Shown here in pieces: positions 3,370-8,755 of a stretch of 64,000 bases of DNA. The stretch covers positions 124,001 through 188,000 of the forward strand of contig NZ_SBIV01000004.1 of NCBI RefSeq assembly GCF_004765795.1, read 5' to 3'. The notes below the pieces were generated by a model, which was not told the DNA's origin, did not search any database, and saw nothing but the letters and a program-made list of their open reading frames with translations. The stretch comes from Halorussus marinus (GTDB lineage Archaea; Halobacteriota; Halobacteria; Halobacteriales; Haladaptataceae). Made by a program: the position numbers and the translations under genes. The stretch's first letter is position 1. Each line of letters opens with the position of its first letter.

Positions 3370-4527
3370 ATGGAAGAGCGCACCCGAGCGTACCTCCGAG
3401 GCCGGTTTCGCGACCACTACCGCCGCGCCGAGGTGTCGGCGCCGCCGGCCCCGCAGGCCCGCGAGTGGGGGTACATCCCGTGGACCACCGGGCCGACCAC
3501 GATGGTCCGCCACCAGTCGCTGCTGGAGCTCGGGGAGCTCTCGGACTTCCTCCGGCGCGAGCGCCCGCGCCACGTCTACTTCTCGGCCGGGCGCTACGAC
3601 GACCCGGGCGCCGACGAGATGGACGACAAGGGGTGGCGCGGGTCGGACCTCGTGTTCGACATCGACGCCGACCACCTCCCGGGGGTCGACCCCCAGCGGG
3701 ACGGCTACGGCGAGATGCTCGCGGCCGGAAAGGACGAGCTACTGGCTCTGCTGGACCTGCTGGAAGCCGACCTCGGCTTCGAAGACGTCACGGTCGTCTT
3801 CTCGGGCGGTCGGGGATACCACGCCCACGTCCGCGACGAGGGCGTCCGCGACCTCGACCGCGATCGGCGCCGGGAGATCGTCGACTACGTCCGGGGCGAG
3901 GGCGTCGACCTCGACGCGATCCAGCGCACGGAGATGGGCGGCACCGCGACCCGGAGGGTCCTCAAGACCGACGGCGGGTGGGGCCGGCGGGTCCACCGGC
4001 GACTGCTCGGCCTCGCCGACGACCTGCTCGCGATGGACGAAGCCGACGCGCTCGACCGGCTCCGGGAGTTCGACCGGATCGGCGAGGGCCGGGCGAAGAC
4101 CATCCTCGGGGCGGTCTCTGAAGACTACGAGAAGCTGGCGAGCGGCAACATCGAGCGGGGCGGCCCCGGCATCCGTCAGCTCGCGAAGGTGATGACCGGC
4201 GAGGTCGTCGCCGACGAGTCGGCCGCGATCGACGAGCCGGTGACGACCGACGTCCGGCGGCTGATCCGACTGCCGGGGAGCCTCCACGGCGGGACCGGGT
4301 TCGAAGTGACGCCCATCCCCCGCGAGGAGGTCGAGGCGTTCGACCCGCTGGTCGATCCCATCCCGGAGACGTTCGTGGGCCACGACGTGACCGTCGAGGT
4401 CACCGACCCCGGCACGGTCGAACTCGACGGCGAAAGCTTTAGGCTCCCGGCGGGAGAGGTATCGGTCCCCGAATACGTGGCCGTGTTCCTGATGGCGCGC
4501 GGCCGGGCCGAGAAGGGTCGAGAATGA
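3370..4527 (+). CDS. priS: DNA primase catalytic small subunit PriS
   Basis: PriS synthesises RNA or DNA primers at the replication fork together with PriL. The 385-residue protein carries the catalytic acidic motif DLVFDIDADH (D97 and D99) and the FSGGRGYHAHV segment of archaeal/eukaryotic primases. The start at 3370 lies about 28 bases downstream of CTTTAAT. Its TGA overlaps the ATG of the GINS gene (ATGA), implying coupled translation. Pairing of priS with a GINS gene is common in archaea and puts two replisome components in one transcript. Confidence 0.96.
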   Translation: MEERTRAYLRGRFRDHYRRAEVSAPPAPQAREWGYIPWTTGPTTMVRHQSLLELGELSDFLRRERPRHVYFSAGRYDDPGADEMDDKGWRGSDLVFDIDADHLPGVDPQRDGYGEMLAAGKDELLALLDLLEADLGFEDVTVVFSGGRGYHAHVRDEGVRDLDRDRRREIVDYVRGEGVDLDAIQRTEMGGTATRRVLKTDGGWGRRVHRRLLGLADDLLAMDEADALDRLREFDRIGEGRAKTILGAVSEDYEKLASGNIERGGPGIRQLAKVMTGEVVADESAAIDEPVTTDVRRLIRLPGSLHGGTGFEVTPIPREEVEAFDPLVDPIPETFVGHDVTVEVTDPGTVELDGESFRLPAGEVSVPEYVAVFLMARGRAEKGRE

Positions 4528-5399
4528 ATCTGGACGAACTCCGCACGGTACAGAACAAAGAGCGTTCGAAAGACAGCCTCCAGCACCTGCGCGAGTCGTT
4601 CTACGCCGAGGTCGGCGAGTACATCGCCGACCTCAAGGCCGAACGCGAGCGCGCCGCCGAGCGCGCCGAGAGCCAGTTCGACGACCCGGAGGTCAACCGC
4701 CTCACCGACGAGATCCACACCGCCGAGGACGTCGTCGAAGCGGTATACGAGCGCCGGGTCGGGAAGGTAGTCAAGCGCGCGAGCCTCGCCGCCGCGGGGA
4801 TGCCCGCCGACGAGGAGGGGCTGACCGCCGAGGAGCAAGAGCTGTTCACGTCGCTGGTCGAGGAGATCGAGGCCAACAAGGCCGAGGTGCTCGACATCCT
4901 CGCGGGCGAGAGCGACGCCGCACGGGCCTCGGCGGACGCCGACGCCTCGCCGGTCACCGACTCGACCCCTCACAGCGACCCCGCCGAGCCCGACGACGCC
5001 GACACCGAAACGGACGTGAGCGCCGCGGACCTGATGGGCGGGGGCTCGCCGGTCGACGACGAGCCGGCGAGCGCGGCGCCGACCGACGACTCCGACGGTG
5101 ACGACCCGCGACCGGCCCCCGACGAGGCGGCCGCGGTCGCGGGCGCGCCCGACGGCCCGGAGGTGGACGCGCTCGACGACCGACAGGAGGCCGACAGCGA
5201 CCCCGACGACTCCACGGACCCCACCGAGGGGCTCGACGACCGCACCACCGTCCGCATCACCCGCGACGTGGGCGAGATCTTCGGCGTCGACGAGCGCACC
5301 TACGAGCTCGCCAGCGAGGACGTGGTGACCCTGCCCGAGGAAAACGCGGGGCCGCTGGTCGAGCGCGGCGCGGCAGAGCGACTCACCGACGTTTTTTAG
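4524..5399 (+). CDS. GINS complex subunit (Gins51/Sld5 type)
   Basis: A 291-residue acidic protein coupled to priS by a 4-base overlap. The N-terminal ~130 residues form the alpha-helical GINS A domain (MNLDELRTVQNKE ... SFYAEVGEYIADL). A long disordered Asp/Ala/Pro-rich linker follows (about 135-235). The C-terminal ~55 residues (TTVRITRDVGEIFGVDERTYEL ... VVTLPEENAGPLVERGAAE) form the small beta-rich B domain. This order, A then B, is that of the archaeal Gins51 type. GINS bridges MCM and GAN/Cdc45 in the replicative helicase. The stop codon lies inside a strong hairpin. Confidence 0.9.
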   Translation: MNLDELRTVQNKERSKDSLQHLRESFYAEVGEYIADLKAERERAAERAESQFDDPEVNRLTDEIHTAEDVVEAVYERRVGKVVKRASLAAAGMPADEEGLTAEEQELFTSLVEEIEANKAEVLDILAGESDAARASADADASPVTDSTPHSDPAEPDDADTETDVSAADLMGGGSPVDDEPASAAPTDDSDGDDPRPAPDEAAAVAGAPDGPEVDALDDRQEADSDPDDSTDPTEGLDDRTTVRITRDVGEIFGVDERTYELASEDVVTLPEENAGPLVERGAAERLTDVF

Positions 5400-5444
5400 C
5401 GGGGTCCTCGCTCGCCACGCTCGCTCGAACCCCGCCAAAAACGT
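5389..5444. terminator. long hairpin, probable bidirectional terminator
   Basis: The left arm ACGTTTTTTAGCGGGGT (5389-5405) pairs with the right arm AACCCCGCCAAAAACGT (5428-5444). The only flaw is a small bulge, and the arms carry T-rich and A-rich ends. The structure spans the Gins51 stop codon (5397-5399). This layout would end transcripts from either side. Nothing is read in from the right within several hundred bases. Confidence 0.6.
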
Positions 5445-5908
5445 CGATGGAAACGCCTCGCGTCGCTCGGCGTCTATCGTGCAACTCAGACGATCTAGCA
5501 CCCATACGTCCTATCCGATCGTTCTCAGAGTAGCAGTTGGGAAGTACAGAGCGTGGACTCACTGTTGTGCGTGACATCATCATCCGCGAGTCTCGAACCG
5601 GAACGAAGCCCTCGGACGACTCTCGATTTCAATCCGGTTGCAAACCGTCAGGCAGGGTTTTTCTTCAACTCTGTGCCGGACAAATTCTCCGTATTCGGCA
5701 CGACCACCGCAAAGACATCTCGAATATGATAGAAGCGGCGTGGTACGTTCGCGTTTCGAATTCACCAAACAAGGCAAGACAGCCCCGCCTTTGAATTTAG
5801 AGGCTTTGTTGGATTCCTATCTTCAGAGACAGCTCTACCTGAAATAGCCGGCCGATGAGAACTGCCCCTTGGCCGCCGATGATCCGACCACTTCAGAATA
5901 CTAAGTAC
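5445..5908. other. AT-richer intergenic region without a supported gene
   Basis: This 460-base stretch is visibly less GC-rich than its surroundings. Short open frames occur on both strands, but none shows acidic haloarchaeal composition, a promoter or a recognisable domain. It contains a solo copy of a transposon-like end at 5802-5827. I read it as an insertion-prone spacer, possibly with decayed mobile DNA. Confidence 0.55.
5802..5827 (+). repeat. solo transposon-like end
   Basis: The bases GGCTTTGTTGGATTCCTATC, followed by TTCAGA, match the reverse complement of the right end of the nearby cassette (GGCTCTGTTGAAATCCTATT then CTTCAGA). It is in the same orientation as the cassette's left end. 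No partner end or target duplication was found, so it is probably a relic of an earlier insertion. Confidence 0.55.
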
Positions 5909-5980
5909 ATACTACTGGCTTTGTTGAAGTCCTCAGCAGTTGATAGTTTTACACCCCAATTGCTCAGTACAGAGGGTCGT

Positions 5981-6178
5981 CTATCGTGGGTCAAACATAT
6001 AGTAGACGATTACCGTCGTAACTCCCATCATCACTGCGTGGATGGCGGTCACTCCCTGAAACAGCAGACTCCCAGCGAATACCCCGAAGAAGCTCGCAAT
6101 ACCAACTGCGATGGCAAATTTTAGTCGGGGGAGATCTTCGACCCACGCTTCAAACTGGTAGTATGATTGTAGCGCCAT
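5981..6178 (-). CDS. small two-helix membrane protein carried by the cassette
   Basis: The protein has 65 residues starting MALQSYYQFEAWVEDLPRL. Two hydrophobic helices follow (about 20-40 and 43-61), and it ends YYMFDPR. The ATG at 6178 is chosen over an upstream one at 6241 because a TATA-like GATTTTATAC at 6204-6213 sits about 30 bases before it; the longer version would start upstream of that box. The gene lies wholly within the inverted repeats, so it moves with the element. I recognise no function. Its preserved reading frame and private promoter suggest selection rather than chance. Confidence 0.7.
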   Translation of the reverse strand: MALQSYYQFEAWVEDLPRLKFAIAVGIASFFGVFAGSLLFQGVTAIHAVMMGVTTVIVYYMFDPR

Positions 6179-6203
6179 CGCCGTGATGTTGTTTGAACAG
6201 TAG

Positions 6204-6213
6204 CGTATAAAAT
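6204..6213 (-). promoter_or_regulatory. TATA box of the cassette gene
   Basis: Read on the minus strand the sequence is GATTTTATAC, centred about 30 bases before the ATG at 6178. It lies inside the mobile cassette, so the gene carries its own promoter to any new site. Confidence 0.5.
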
Positions 6214-6363
6214 CGTATGCTGATACAGGTCGGATCAACAAGCCGTTTCAGGCGAAGATATATCTGAAGAATAGGATTTCAACAGAGCCATACTACTAGC
6301 TACTGGTAGCGCTCGGCGATGCTTCCTGCCGTCGTACACCGTAATCCGCCGCGAGCGAACGGA

Positions 6364-6490: not shown

Positions 6491-8755
6491 TCATTGGAAC
6501 GTCCGACCCAGCTGGTCCTGTTCGGTCTCGGGCTCGGCGGTGTCGAACTGCTCTTCGATTTCCTCGTAGCGCTCTTTGGTCTCCTCGGTCACGCTCGGGG
6601 TGACCTCGGTGAGCGCCTGCTCGAAGTGTTCCTTGCTGACCCGGACGTTCCCGACGCTGTCGCCGATGTCCTCGGGATCGACGCTGTGGATGAACTCCCG
6701 GGACGCGGCCATCGAGGCCTCGCGGGCGACCGCCTCGATGTCGGCGCCGACGTAGCCCTCGGTCTCGGCCGCGAGCCGATCGAGGTCGACGTCGTCGGCC
6801 ACCGGCTTCTCGCGGGTGTGGACCTCGAAGATCGCCTTCCGGGCGTCCTCGTCGGGCACCGGGACGTGGACGTGCCGATCGAGCCGACCCGGGCGCAACA
6901 GCGCCGAGTCGATCAGGTCCGGCCGGTTCGAGGTCGCGATCACGACCACGTCTTCGAGCTCTTCGAGGCCGTCGAGCTCCGTCAGGAGCTGGGAGACCAC
7001 GCGTTCGCCGACCTGCGAGCCCCCGCCCTGTCCGGAGCCGCGCTCGGTGGCGATCGAGTCGATCTCGTCGAAGAACACCACGGTCGGGGCGTTCTCCCGG
7101 GCCTTGCTGAACACCTCGCGGACGCCCTTCTCGGACTCGCCGACCCACTTGCTGAGGAGTTCGGGGCCCTTGATCGAGATGAAGTTGCTGTCGGCCTCGT
7201 TGGCGACGGCCTTCGCCATCAGGGTCTTGCCCGTGCCCGGCGGGCCGTACATCAGCACGCCCTTGGCGGCCTGCATGTCGAGTTCTTCGAACACTTCGGG
7301 GTACTCGAGGGGCCACTGGATGGTCTCGCGGAGGCGCTCTTTGGTGTCTTCTAGACCGCCGACCTGATCCCACGAGACGTCGGGGACCTCGACGAACACC
7401 TCGCGGAGCGCGGAGGGCTCGATGCCCTTCAGCGCCTCCTTGAAGTCGCGCTCGGTGACCTGGAGCGAGTCGAGCACGTCGGCGGAGATCTCGTCGGATT
7501 CGAGGTCGATCTCCGGCCGGATCCGCCGGAGCGCGTTCATCGCCGACTCCTTGGCGAGGTTCTCGAGGTCGGCGCCGACGAAGCCGTGGGTGTTGTCGGC
7601 GTACTCCTCGAGGTCGATGCCCTCCGCGAGGGGCATCCCGCGGGTGTGGACCTGCATGATCTCGAGGCGGCCGTCCCGGTCCGGGACGCCGATCTCGATC
7701 TCGCGGTCGAACCGACCCGGGCGCCGCAGGGCGGGGTCGACCGCGTCGATCCGGTTGGTCGCCGCGATCACGGTGACGTCGCCGCGGGATTCGAGCCCGT
7801 CCATCAGCGACAGGAGCTGGGCGACCACGCGGCGCTCGACGTCGCCGCCGGCGTCCTCGCGCTTGGGCGCGATGGAGTCGAGCTCGTCGATGAACACGAT
7901 CGCCGGGGCGTTCTCCTCGGCGTCCTCGAACACCTCGCGGAGCTTCTCCTCGGACTCCCCGTAGTACTTGCTCATGATCTCGGGGCCCGAGATGGTCTGG
8001 AAGTGGGCGTCGATCTCGTTGGCGACCGCCTTCGCCATCAGGGTCTTGCCCGTGCCCGGCGGGCCGTGGAGCACCACGCCCTTCGGGGGCTCGATGCCGA
8101 GCCGCTGGAACAGCTCGGGATGGCGCATCGGGAGCTCGATCATCTCCCGGACCTGTTCGAGTTCGCCCTCGAGGCCGCCGATGTCCTCGTAGGTCACGCT
8201 CGGGGTGCCCTCCCCGCCGGCGCCCCCGGCCGCCCCGACCTCCTCGGCGGGACGTTCGCTGACGTTGATCTCCGTCGAGTCGGTCACGACGACCGTCCCC
8301 TCTGGGTCGGTGTTCGCGACCTTCAGGGGAATCGACTGGCCCGATCCCATCCCCATCAGCCCGAAGCCGAACGGGACGTTCTGGCCCTGCGTGATGGCCT
8401 GTCCGCTCAGCTTGTCGCGGATGTGGGGCGCGATGTTCCCGCGGATCTGGAGGTTCTGCGGGAGCGCGATGGTGACCGAGTTGGCCGGCTTCACGTCGGC
8501 GGGTTCGATCGTGACCTTGTCGTCGATACCGACGCCAGCCTCTTGGCGGAGCTGGCCGTCGATCCGGACGACGCCGCGACCCTCGTCTTCGGGGTAGCCG
8601 GGCCAGACCCGGGCGACCGCCCGGCCCTGCCCGCGGCCCTCGATGACCACGTAGTCGCCGTTCTCGACGCCGAGCTCCTGCATCGAGCGCCGATCGACGG
8701 CCGCGAGCCCGCGGCCGGCGTCTTTCTGCTTCAGCGGCTTTACTGTGAGCTTCAT
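6491..8755 (-). CDS. cdc48: Cdc48/p97-type AAA+ unfoldase
   Basis: Cdc48 hexamers use ATP to unfold or extract proteins and feed the archaeal proteasome. The 754-residue protein has the double-psi-barrel N domain (about 1-185) and two AAA+ modules. Both Walker A motifs are [17 protein letters not shown] (near residues 230 and 505), and the Walker B motifs are [10 protein letters not shown] and [10 protein letters not shown]. The C-terminus lacks an obvious HbYX motif (ends LGRTFQ). It overlaps the upstream Hsp20-like gene by 4 bases, so the two are coupled and share the promoter near 9029. A second paralogue lies at 44987-47212. Confidence 0.96.

Follow-up and report, generated by a model that had tools for sequence, protein, structure and literature searches.

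The element at positions 5917-6289 of the window, by which we mean the whole 64,000-nucleotide stretch of Halorussus marinus DNA that was analysed, is a hitch-hiking mobile cassette with insertion-sequence-family ends and no transposase of its own. It is highly probable that it represents a non-autonomous transposable gene cassette mobilised in trans by a transposase of the IS5 family (NF033579 group), and it is one member of a large and widespread set of cassettes that carry dozens of unrelated genes.

Anatomy of the element

The element is 373 bp long and is bounded by 17-bp inverted ends, alike at 15 of 17 positions, which are flanked by a perfect 8-bp duplication. Its features, together with an older remnant beside it, are as follows:

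5802-5867, plus strand: decayed right end of an older cassette, at a distance of about 107 bp to the intact element
5909-5916, no strand: left copy of the target duplication, ATACTACT
5917-5933, plus strand: left terminal inverted repeat, GGCTTTGTTGAAGTCCT
5934-5976, plus strand: left subterminal region (CAGCAGTTGATAGTTTTACACCC...CAGTACAG), of the type found at the left end of transposase-less cassettes and common to L002, L054, L055 and other loci
5981-6178, minus strand: passenger gene for a 65-aa protein with two predicted transmembrane helices and without a match in Pfam or NCBIfam
6206-6211, minus strand: TATA-box-like TTTATA, 27 nt ahead of the ATG, in an AT-rich block retained in most homologues
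6226-6272, minus strand: right subterminal region (ATTCTTCAGATATATCTTCGCCTGAAACGGC...), common to transposase-bearing IS elements
6273-6289, minus strand: right terminal inverted repeat, GGCTCTGTTGAAATCCT (read inwards)
6290-6297, no strand: right copy of the target duplication, ATACTACT

A scan for pairs of 17-bp inverted ends, allowing up to 2 mismatches and a separation of 200-2500 bp and requiring a perfect 8-bp duplication on the outside, returned exactly one structure in the window and 0 in 20 shuffles. The right subterminal region is 85% identical to the right-end consensus (positions 18-50), compared to a mean of 30% and a maximum of 55% at random positions (n=5000), and the element is AT-rich, with 48% GC against 68% for the host. 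No transposase was found within 5917-6289, and no phage matches to the element were found. The ends are short, as they would be if short repeats had merely come to lie around an ordinary gene by chance. We consider this explanation already refuted and its probability negligible, since the structure never arises in shuffles and dozens of siblings carry both subterminal regions together with an 8-bp duplication.

A first-pass annotation of this DNA had placed an element at 5909-6297, and its coordinates, inverted ends and ATACTACT duplication proved right to the base. It had also described a single gene without a transposase, a two-helix membrane protein as the product and a TATA box belonging to the gene, and these readings hold, with the gene best read as 65 aa, the two helices as predicted and the promoter role as probable. 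For the recent insertion that it proposed, the perfect duplication is the one basis.

The passenger gene

The passenger is read on the minus strand from an ATG at 6178 to 5981 and encodes a 65-aa protein in which a hydropathy window predicts two membrane helices; searches of this protein against Pfam and NCBIfam found no match. We preferred this reading to a longer 86-aa frame starting at TTG because the ATG is common to the homologues and the TATA-like TTTATA ends 27 nt upstream of it. At the promoter spacing usual in haloarchaea, transcription from this box would start so near the ATG that the transcript would be almost leaderless. Judged from its sequence, TTTATA at 6206-6211 is probably the element's own promoter and may well be a working one, and a passenger with its own promoter would be expressible wherever the cassette lands.

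Homologues that are 75-83% identical occur in five other genomes, including those of Haloplanus ruber, Natrinema thermotolerans, Halobacterium sp. KA-4 and Haloglomus irregulare, and with weaker relatives included the protein family reaches 47 of the 245 Halobacteriales genomes sampled. One of the weaker relatives (32% identity) lies on contig C5 of the element's own genome. In the close homologue set dN/dS is 0.16-0.49 in all 15 pairs, and the protein is therefore kept by selection: the gene is under purifying selection. The left end still lies just downstream of the gene in two close homologues, and others retain its inner part only. With the ends decayed or partial in this way, the gene seems to outlive the ends of its cassette. 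That the passenger is kept by selection even where the cassette ends have decayed indicates that the host probably profits from some of the cargo, and this gene may itself be of benefit. Two other candidates were set aside: a Halobacterium salinarum match (H4) covers part of the coding region only, with no gene annotated there, and the 62-aa protein of a similar-sized cassette from Halorubrum PV6 is not related to the 65-aa protein.

A family of elements with shared ends

Across the sample of 245 Halobacteriales genomes, 135 contain a mismatch-free copy of the end pattern GGCTYTGTTGAAATCCT and none contains the reversed control pattern. We collected loci by the end pattern, by similarity to the element or by the transposase. 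Many were chosen for having two facing ends and none for a duplication, so that the duplication test is a fair one and the proportions of cassettes and transposase-bearing elements are not a census. We examined 94 adjacent inverted end pairs, of which 34 have a perfect 8-bp duplication and 13 one that matches at 7 of 8 positions, compared to 0.4 and 0.3 in shuffles, and no duplication length other than 8 bp stands out. In this non-census collection a near-full transposase lies between 24 of the 94 pairs, fragments of one between 5 and no trace between 65; for the 47 pairs with a duplication of at least 7/8 the corresponding numbers are 12, 3 and 32. Past the inverted repeat the left and right ends differ from each other, and each subterminal region is conserved across elements.

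A second member of the family is present in the element's own genome (C7:197666-199064; L002 1501-2899). It is 1399 bp long, with two cargo ORFs and a 6/8 duplication, and the insertion recurs in a relative (L038), between the same flanks. At another locus (L169 1131-2830), a cassette with a 7/8 duplication encloses two complete nested cassettes, each with its own perfect 8-bp duplication.

Evidence of movement

Several siblings bear signs of movement. An identical 462-bp transposase-less cassette is found at two places in Halorubrum lacusprofundi pHLAC01, one of them with a perfect duplication, and a cassette of 329/327 bp, 91% identical between two genomes, has different perfect duplications in the two. 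Empty sites are clean for two sibling cassettes. At the position of a 448-bp cassette in Halobacterium sp. DL1, a lone GATGAACT is present in Halobacterium hubeiense pSTJ001, and Haladaptatus QDMS2 is continuous and 80% identical, with no gap across the junction, where pR1SE2 carries a rhodanese cassette. The end type of the pR1SE2 cassette is the same as that of the window element, and the DL1 cassette is of a somewhat different subtype.

For the window site itself, an empty allele was sought in relatives and not found, because the left flanking stretch is absent from them. The element's neighbours are an ORF at 4524-5399 on one side and, on the other, a two-domain AAA ATPase at 6491-8755 that by eye is CDC48-type. 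Both neighbours are retained in relatives, where the gap between them ranges from about 80 bp to 1.6 kb, and the left flank (5400-5908) gives just short weak matches. Within this flank, the remnant at 5802-5867 is 67% identical to the right-end consensus, a higher value than at any of 5000 random positions. The first-pass annotation had not noted this remnant, which matches the end pattern at 5802-5818; taken alone, that match is not independent, as the pattern was derived from the window element's own ends. This decayed right end shows that the spot was used by a cassette earlier.

The probable helper transposase

Between matching ends the transposase is a 273-aa DDE enzyme of the IS5 family, which scores 206-210 bits against NF033579 (cut-off 140), matches PF01609 and, in intact copies, begins at an ATG 52 bp inside the left end. 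We take its place to be in the ISH1 subgroup of IS5. Transposase-bearing elements with matching ends occur in other haloarchaeal genomes, some of them of the same genus; in the 37 contigs of the element's own genome, neither a transposase of the matching group nor an IS with matching ends was found. The nearest IS5 transposases there are 38-39% identical to the matching group, and these copies were rejected as the helper on that identity and on the GGGYGTGTTTAGA ends of the readable one. An IS5-type element on contig C7 (L248 1347-2281) has GGGYGTGTTTAGA ends and a perfect 8-bp duplication, AAATATTG. Separately, a 1193-bp transposase-bearing element at four loci (L101, L154, L160 and L161) is 99.9-100% identical across genomes matching Halobacterium sp. 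DL1 and Halorubrum lacusprofundi, which are members of two families.

We had first suspected an IS6 helper from the 8-bp duplication and the GGC...GTTGAA ends. Mobilisation by the transposase of a different element with similar ends, for instance one of the IS6 family, would fit the 8-bp duplications that IS6 members make (PMC7986276) and the IS6 transposases that occur in the element's own genome. Yet the IS5 enzyme is the only transposase found between matching ends, and the own-genome IS6 copy with readable ends has GGCACTGTTCAGAT ends, which makes such a helper very improbable.

At the right end, the resemblance between cassettes and transposase-bearing elements extends well past the inverted repeat, whereas the left subterminal sequence of the cassettes differs from that of the transposase-bearing elements. 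Because of this difference, the true helper could be an unsampled relative. The same left end bears on whether the element is a plain deletion derivative of a transposase-bearing IS, a MITE-like relic in which the small ORF is incidental. Its shortness, its lack of a transposase and the relation of its ends to IS ends would all suit such an origin. However, its left end is of the cassette type, unlike that of the transposase-bearing elements, no IS remnant was found inside it, and the ORF is 75-83% conserved elsewhere, has dN/dS of 0.16-0.49 and has a well-placed TATA box; we regard this origin as improbable.

The preferred reading is thus of a cassette with two distinct ends that would be recognised by an IS5-family (NF033579 group) transposase supplied from another element. 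The enzyme would insert the cassette and duplicate 8 bp of target, and the cassette carries one host-type gene, here that of the 65-aa protein with two predicted membrane helices, in the transposase's place. An NF033579-group transposase would have moved this very copy while its source was in the cell. The first-pass annotation had likewise proposed a non-autonomous element moved in trans with a passenger, a proposal that is well supported by the end-sharing IS, the sibling cassettes and the two sibling empty sites. The further copies with different 8-bp duplications that it anticipated exist as dozens of transposase-less cassettes with the same ends, and the full IS elements with matching ends in the other haloarchaea mentioned above; the empty sites that it called for are those of two siblings and not of the window site.

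Diversity of the cargo

Grouped by blastp at 1e-4, the main cargo proteins of 84 elements make up 75 unrelated families, a count that takes in all 84 elements with a passenger ORF of at least 58 aa, some short ones possibly spurious. Passenger ORFs of this size are also carried by 23 of the 24 transposase-bearing elements, where they represent 20 families and lie between the transposase and the right end. Examples of cargo include a rhodanese, a universal stress protein, a bile-acid-type transporter, BrkB, a luciferase-like monooxygenase and GNAT, and two elements (L124 2824-3512 and L176 1486-2244) carry nothing but a HicA toxin and a DUF7387 partner. Just five PADLOC models match any of 80 cargo proteins, which indicates that defence is not a main theme.

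A broader reading, which we offer as possible rather than probable, is that haloarchaea share a large pool of single-gene cassettes, similar in effect to integron cassettes. One IS5-type transposase system with fixed left and right ends would continually pick up and reshuffle host genes unrelated to each other (toxin-antitoxin pairs, transporters, enzymes and small membrane proteins), which would travel both in cassettes without a transposase and as exchangeable passengers behind one, and would form a main route of gene exchange between Halobacteriales families. Mobile insertion cassettes are usually described singly and mostly from bacteria, and here one set of ends occurs in more than half of the sampled Halobacteriales genomes. 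Most of the cassettes lack the transposase that annotation pipelines would flag, so that this would be a largely unannotated route of archaeal gene transfer. The defined ends make more cassettes easy to find and test.

Comparison with known systems

The element has what characterises a mobile insertion cassette, namely IS inverted repeats, a passenger without a transposase, a target duplication and a cognate IS, in this case in other haloarchaea. MIC231 and other such cassettes are known from Bacillus cereus, where they are moved by IS231A (PMC3913671). Common to MIC231 and our family are IS ends, a target duplication, a passenger replacing the transposase and mobilisation in trans, the last of these being predicted here from sequence. 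The family differs from MIC231 in being archaeal, in its IS5-type helper, in its 8-bp duplication and in its far more varied cargo (75 families in 84 elements). IS231, the helper of MIC231, belongs to the IS4 family.

Among haloarchaea, ISH2 is a coding MITE of Halobacterium and Haloquadratum that is moved by ISH8 (PMC10264941, PMC3119063), with a duplication of mostly 10 bp (PMC10264941). It resembles the window element in being about 0.5 kb long and transposase-less, with one small ORF, for which there is evidence of expression in ISH2, and in moving in trans. By their descriptions the two are set apart by the ISH8-related ends, mostly 10-bp duplication and one fixed cargo of ISH2, in contrast to the 8-bp duplication, IS5-type helper and variable cargo of our family, and we rejected ISH2 as the identity of the window element on the length of the duplication. 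ISH1 of Halobacterium makes an 8-bp duplication (table in PMC10264941); it and our family, both haloarchaeal, are likened here by description only.

In the open-access literature, we found no paper that treats the whole family. The kind of element is a known one, like MIC231 and ISH2, from which the family differs in its ends, the length of its duplication, its helper and the much greater variety of its cargo. What the first-pass annotation saw as an unusual mini-element, perhaps of a distinct class, is one member of a family with very diverse cargo that occurs in 135 of the 245 sampled genomes.

Insertion sequences with passenger genes (tIS) have also been described, among them a Halorubrum lacusprofundi transposon with Hlac_3088 as its passenger (PMC10544981). 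The window element differs from a tIS in lacking a transposase, while the transposase-bearing members of the family, like a tIS, carry a passenger. At one of our loci (L164), whose genome matches H. lacusprofundi, the passenger is 233 aa long and has a PGF-type C-terminus, as described for Hlac_3088; the element there is probably the same as the Hlac_3088 transposon, which would hence be a member of the family.
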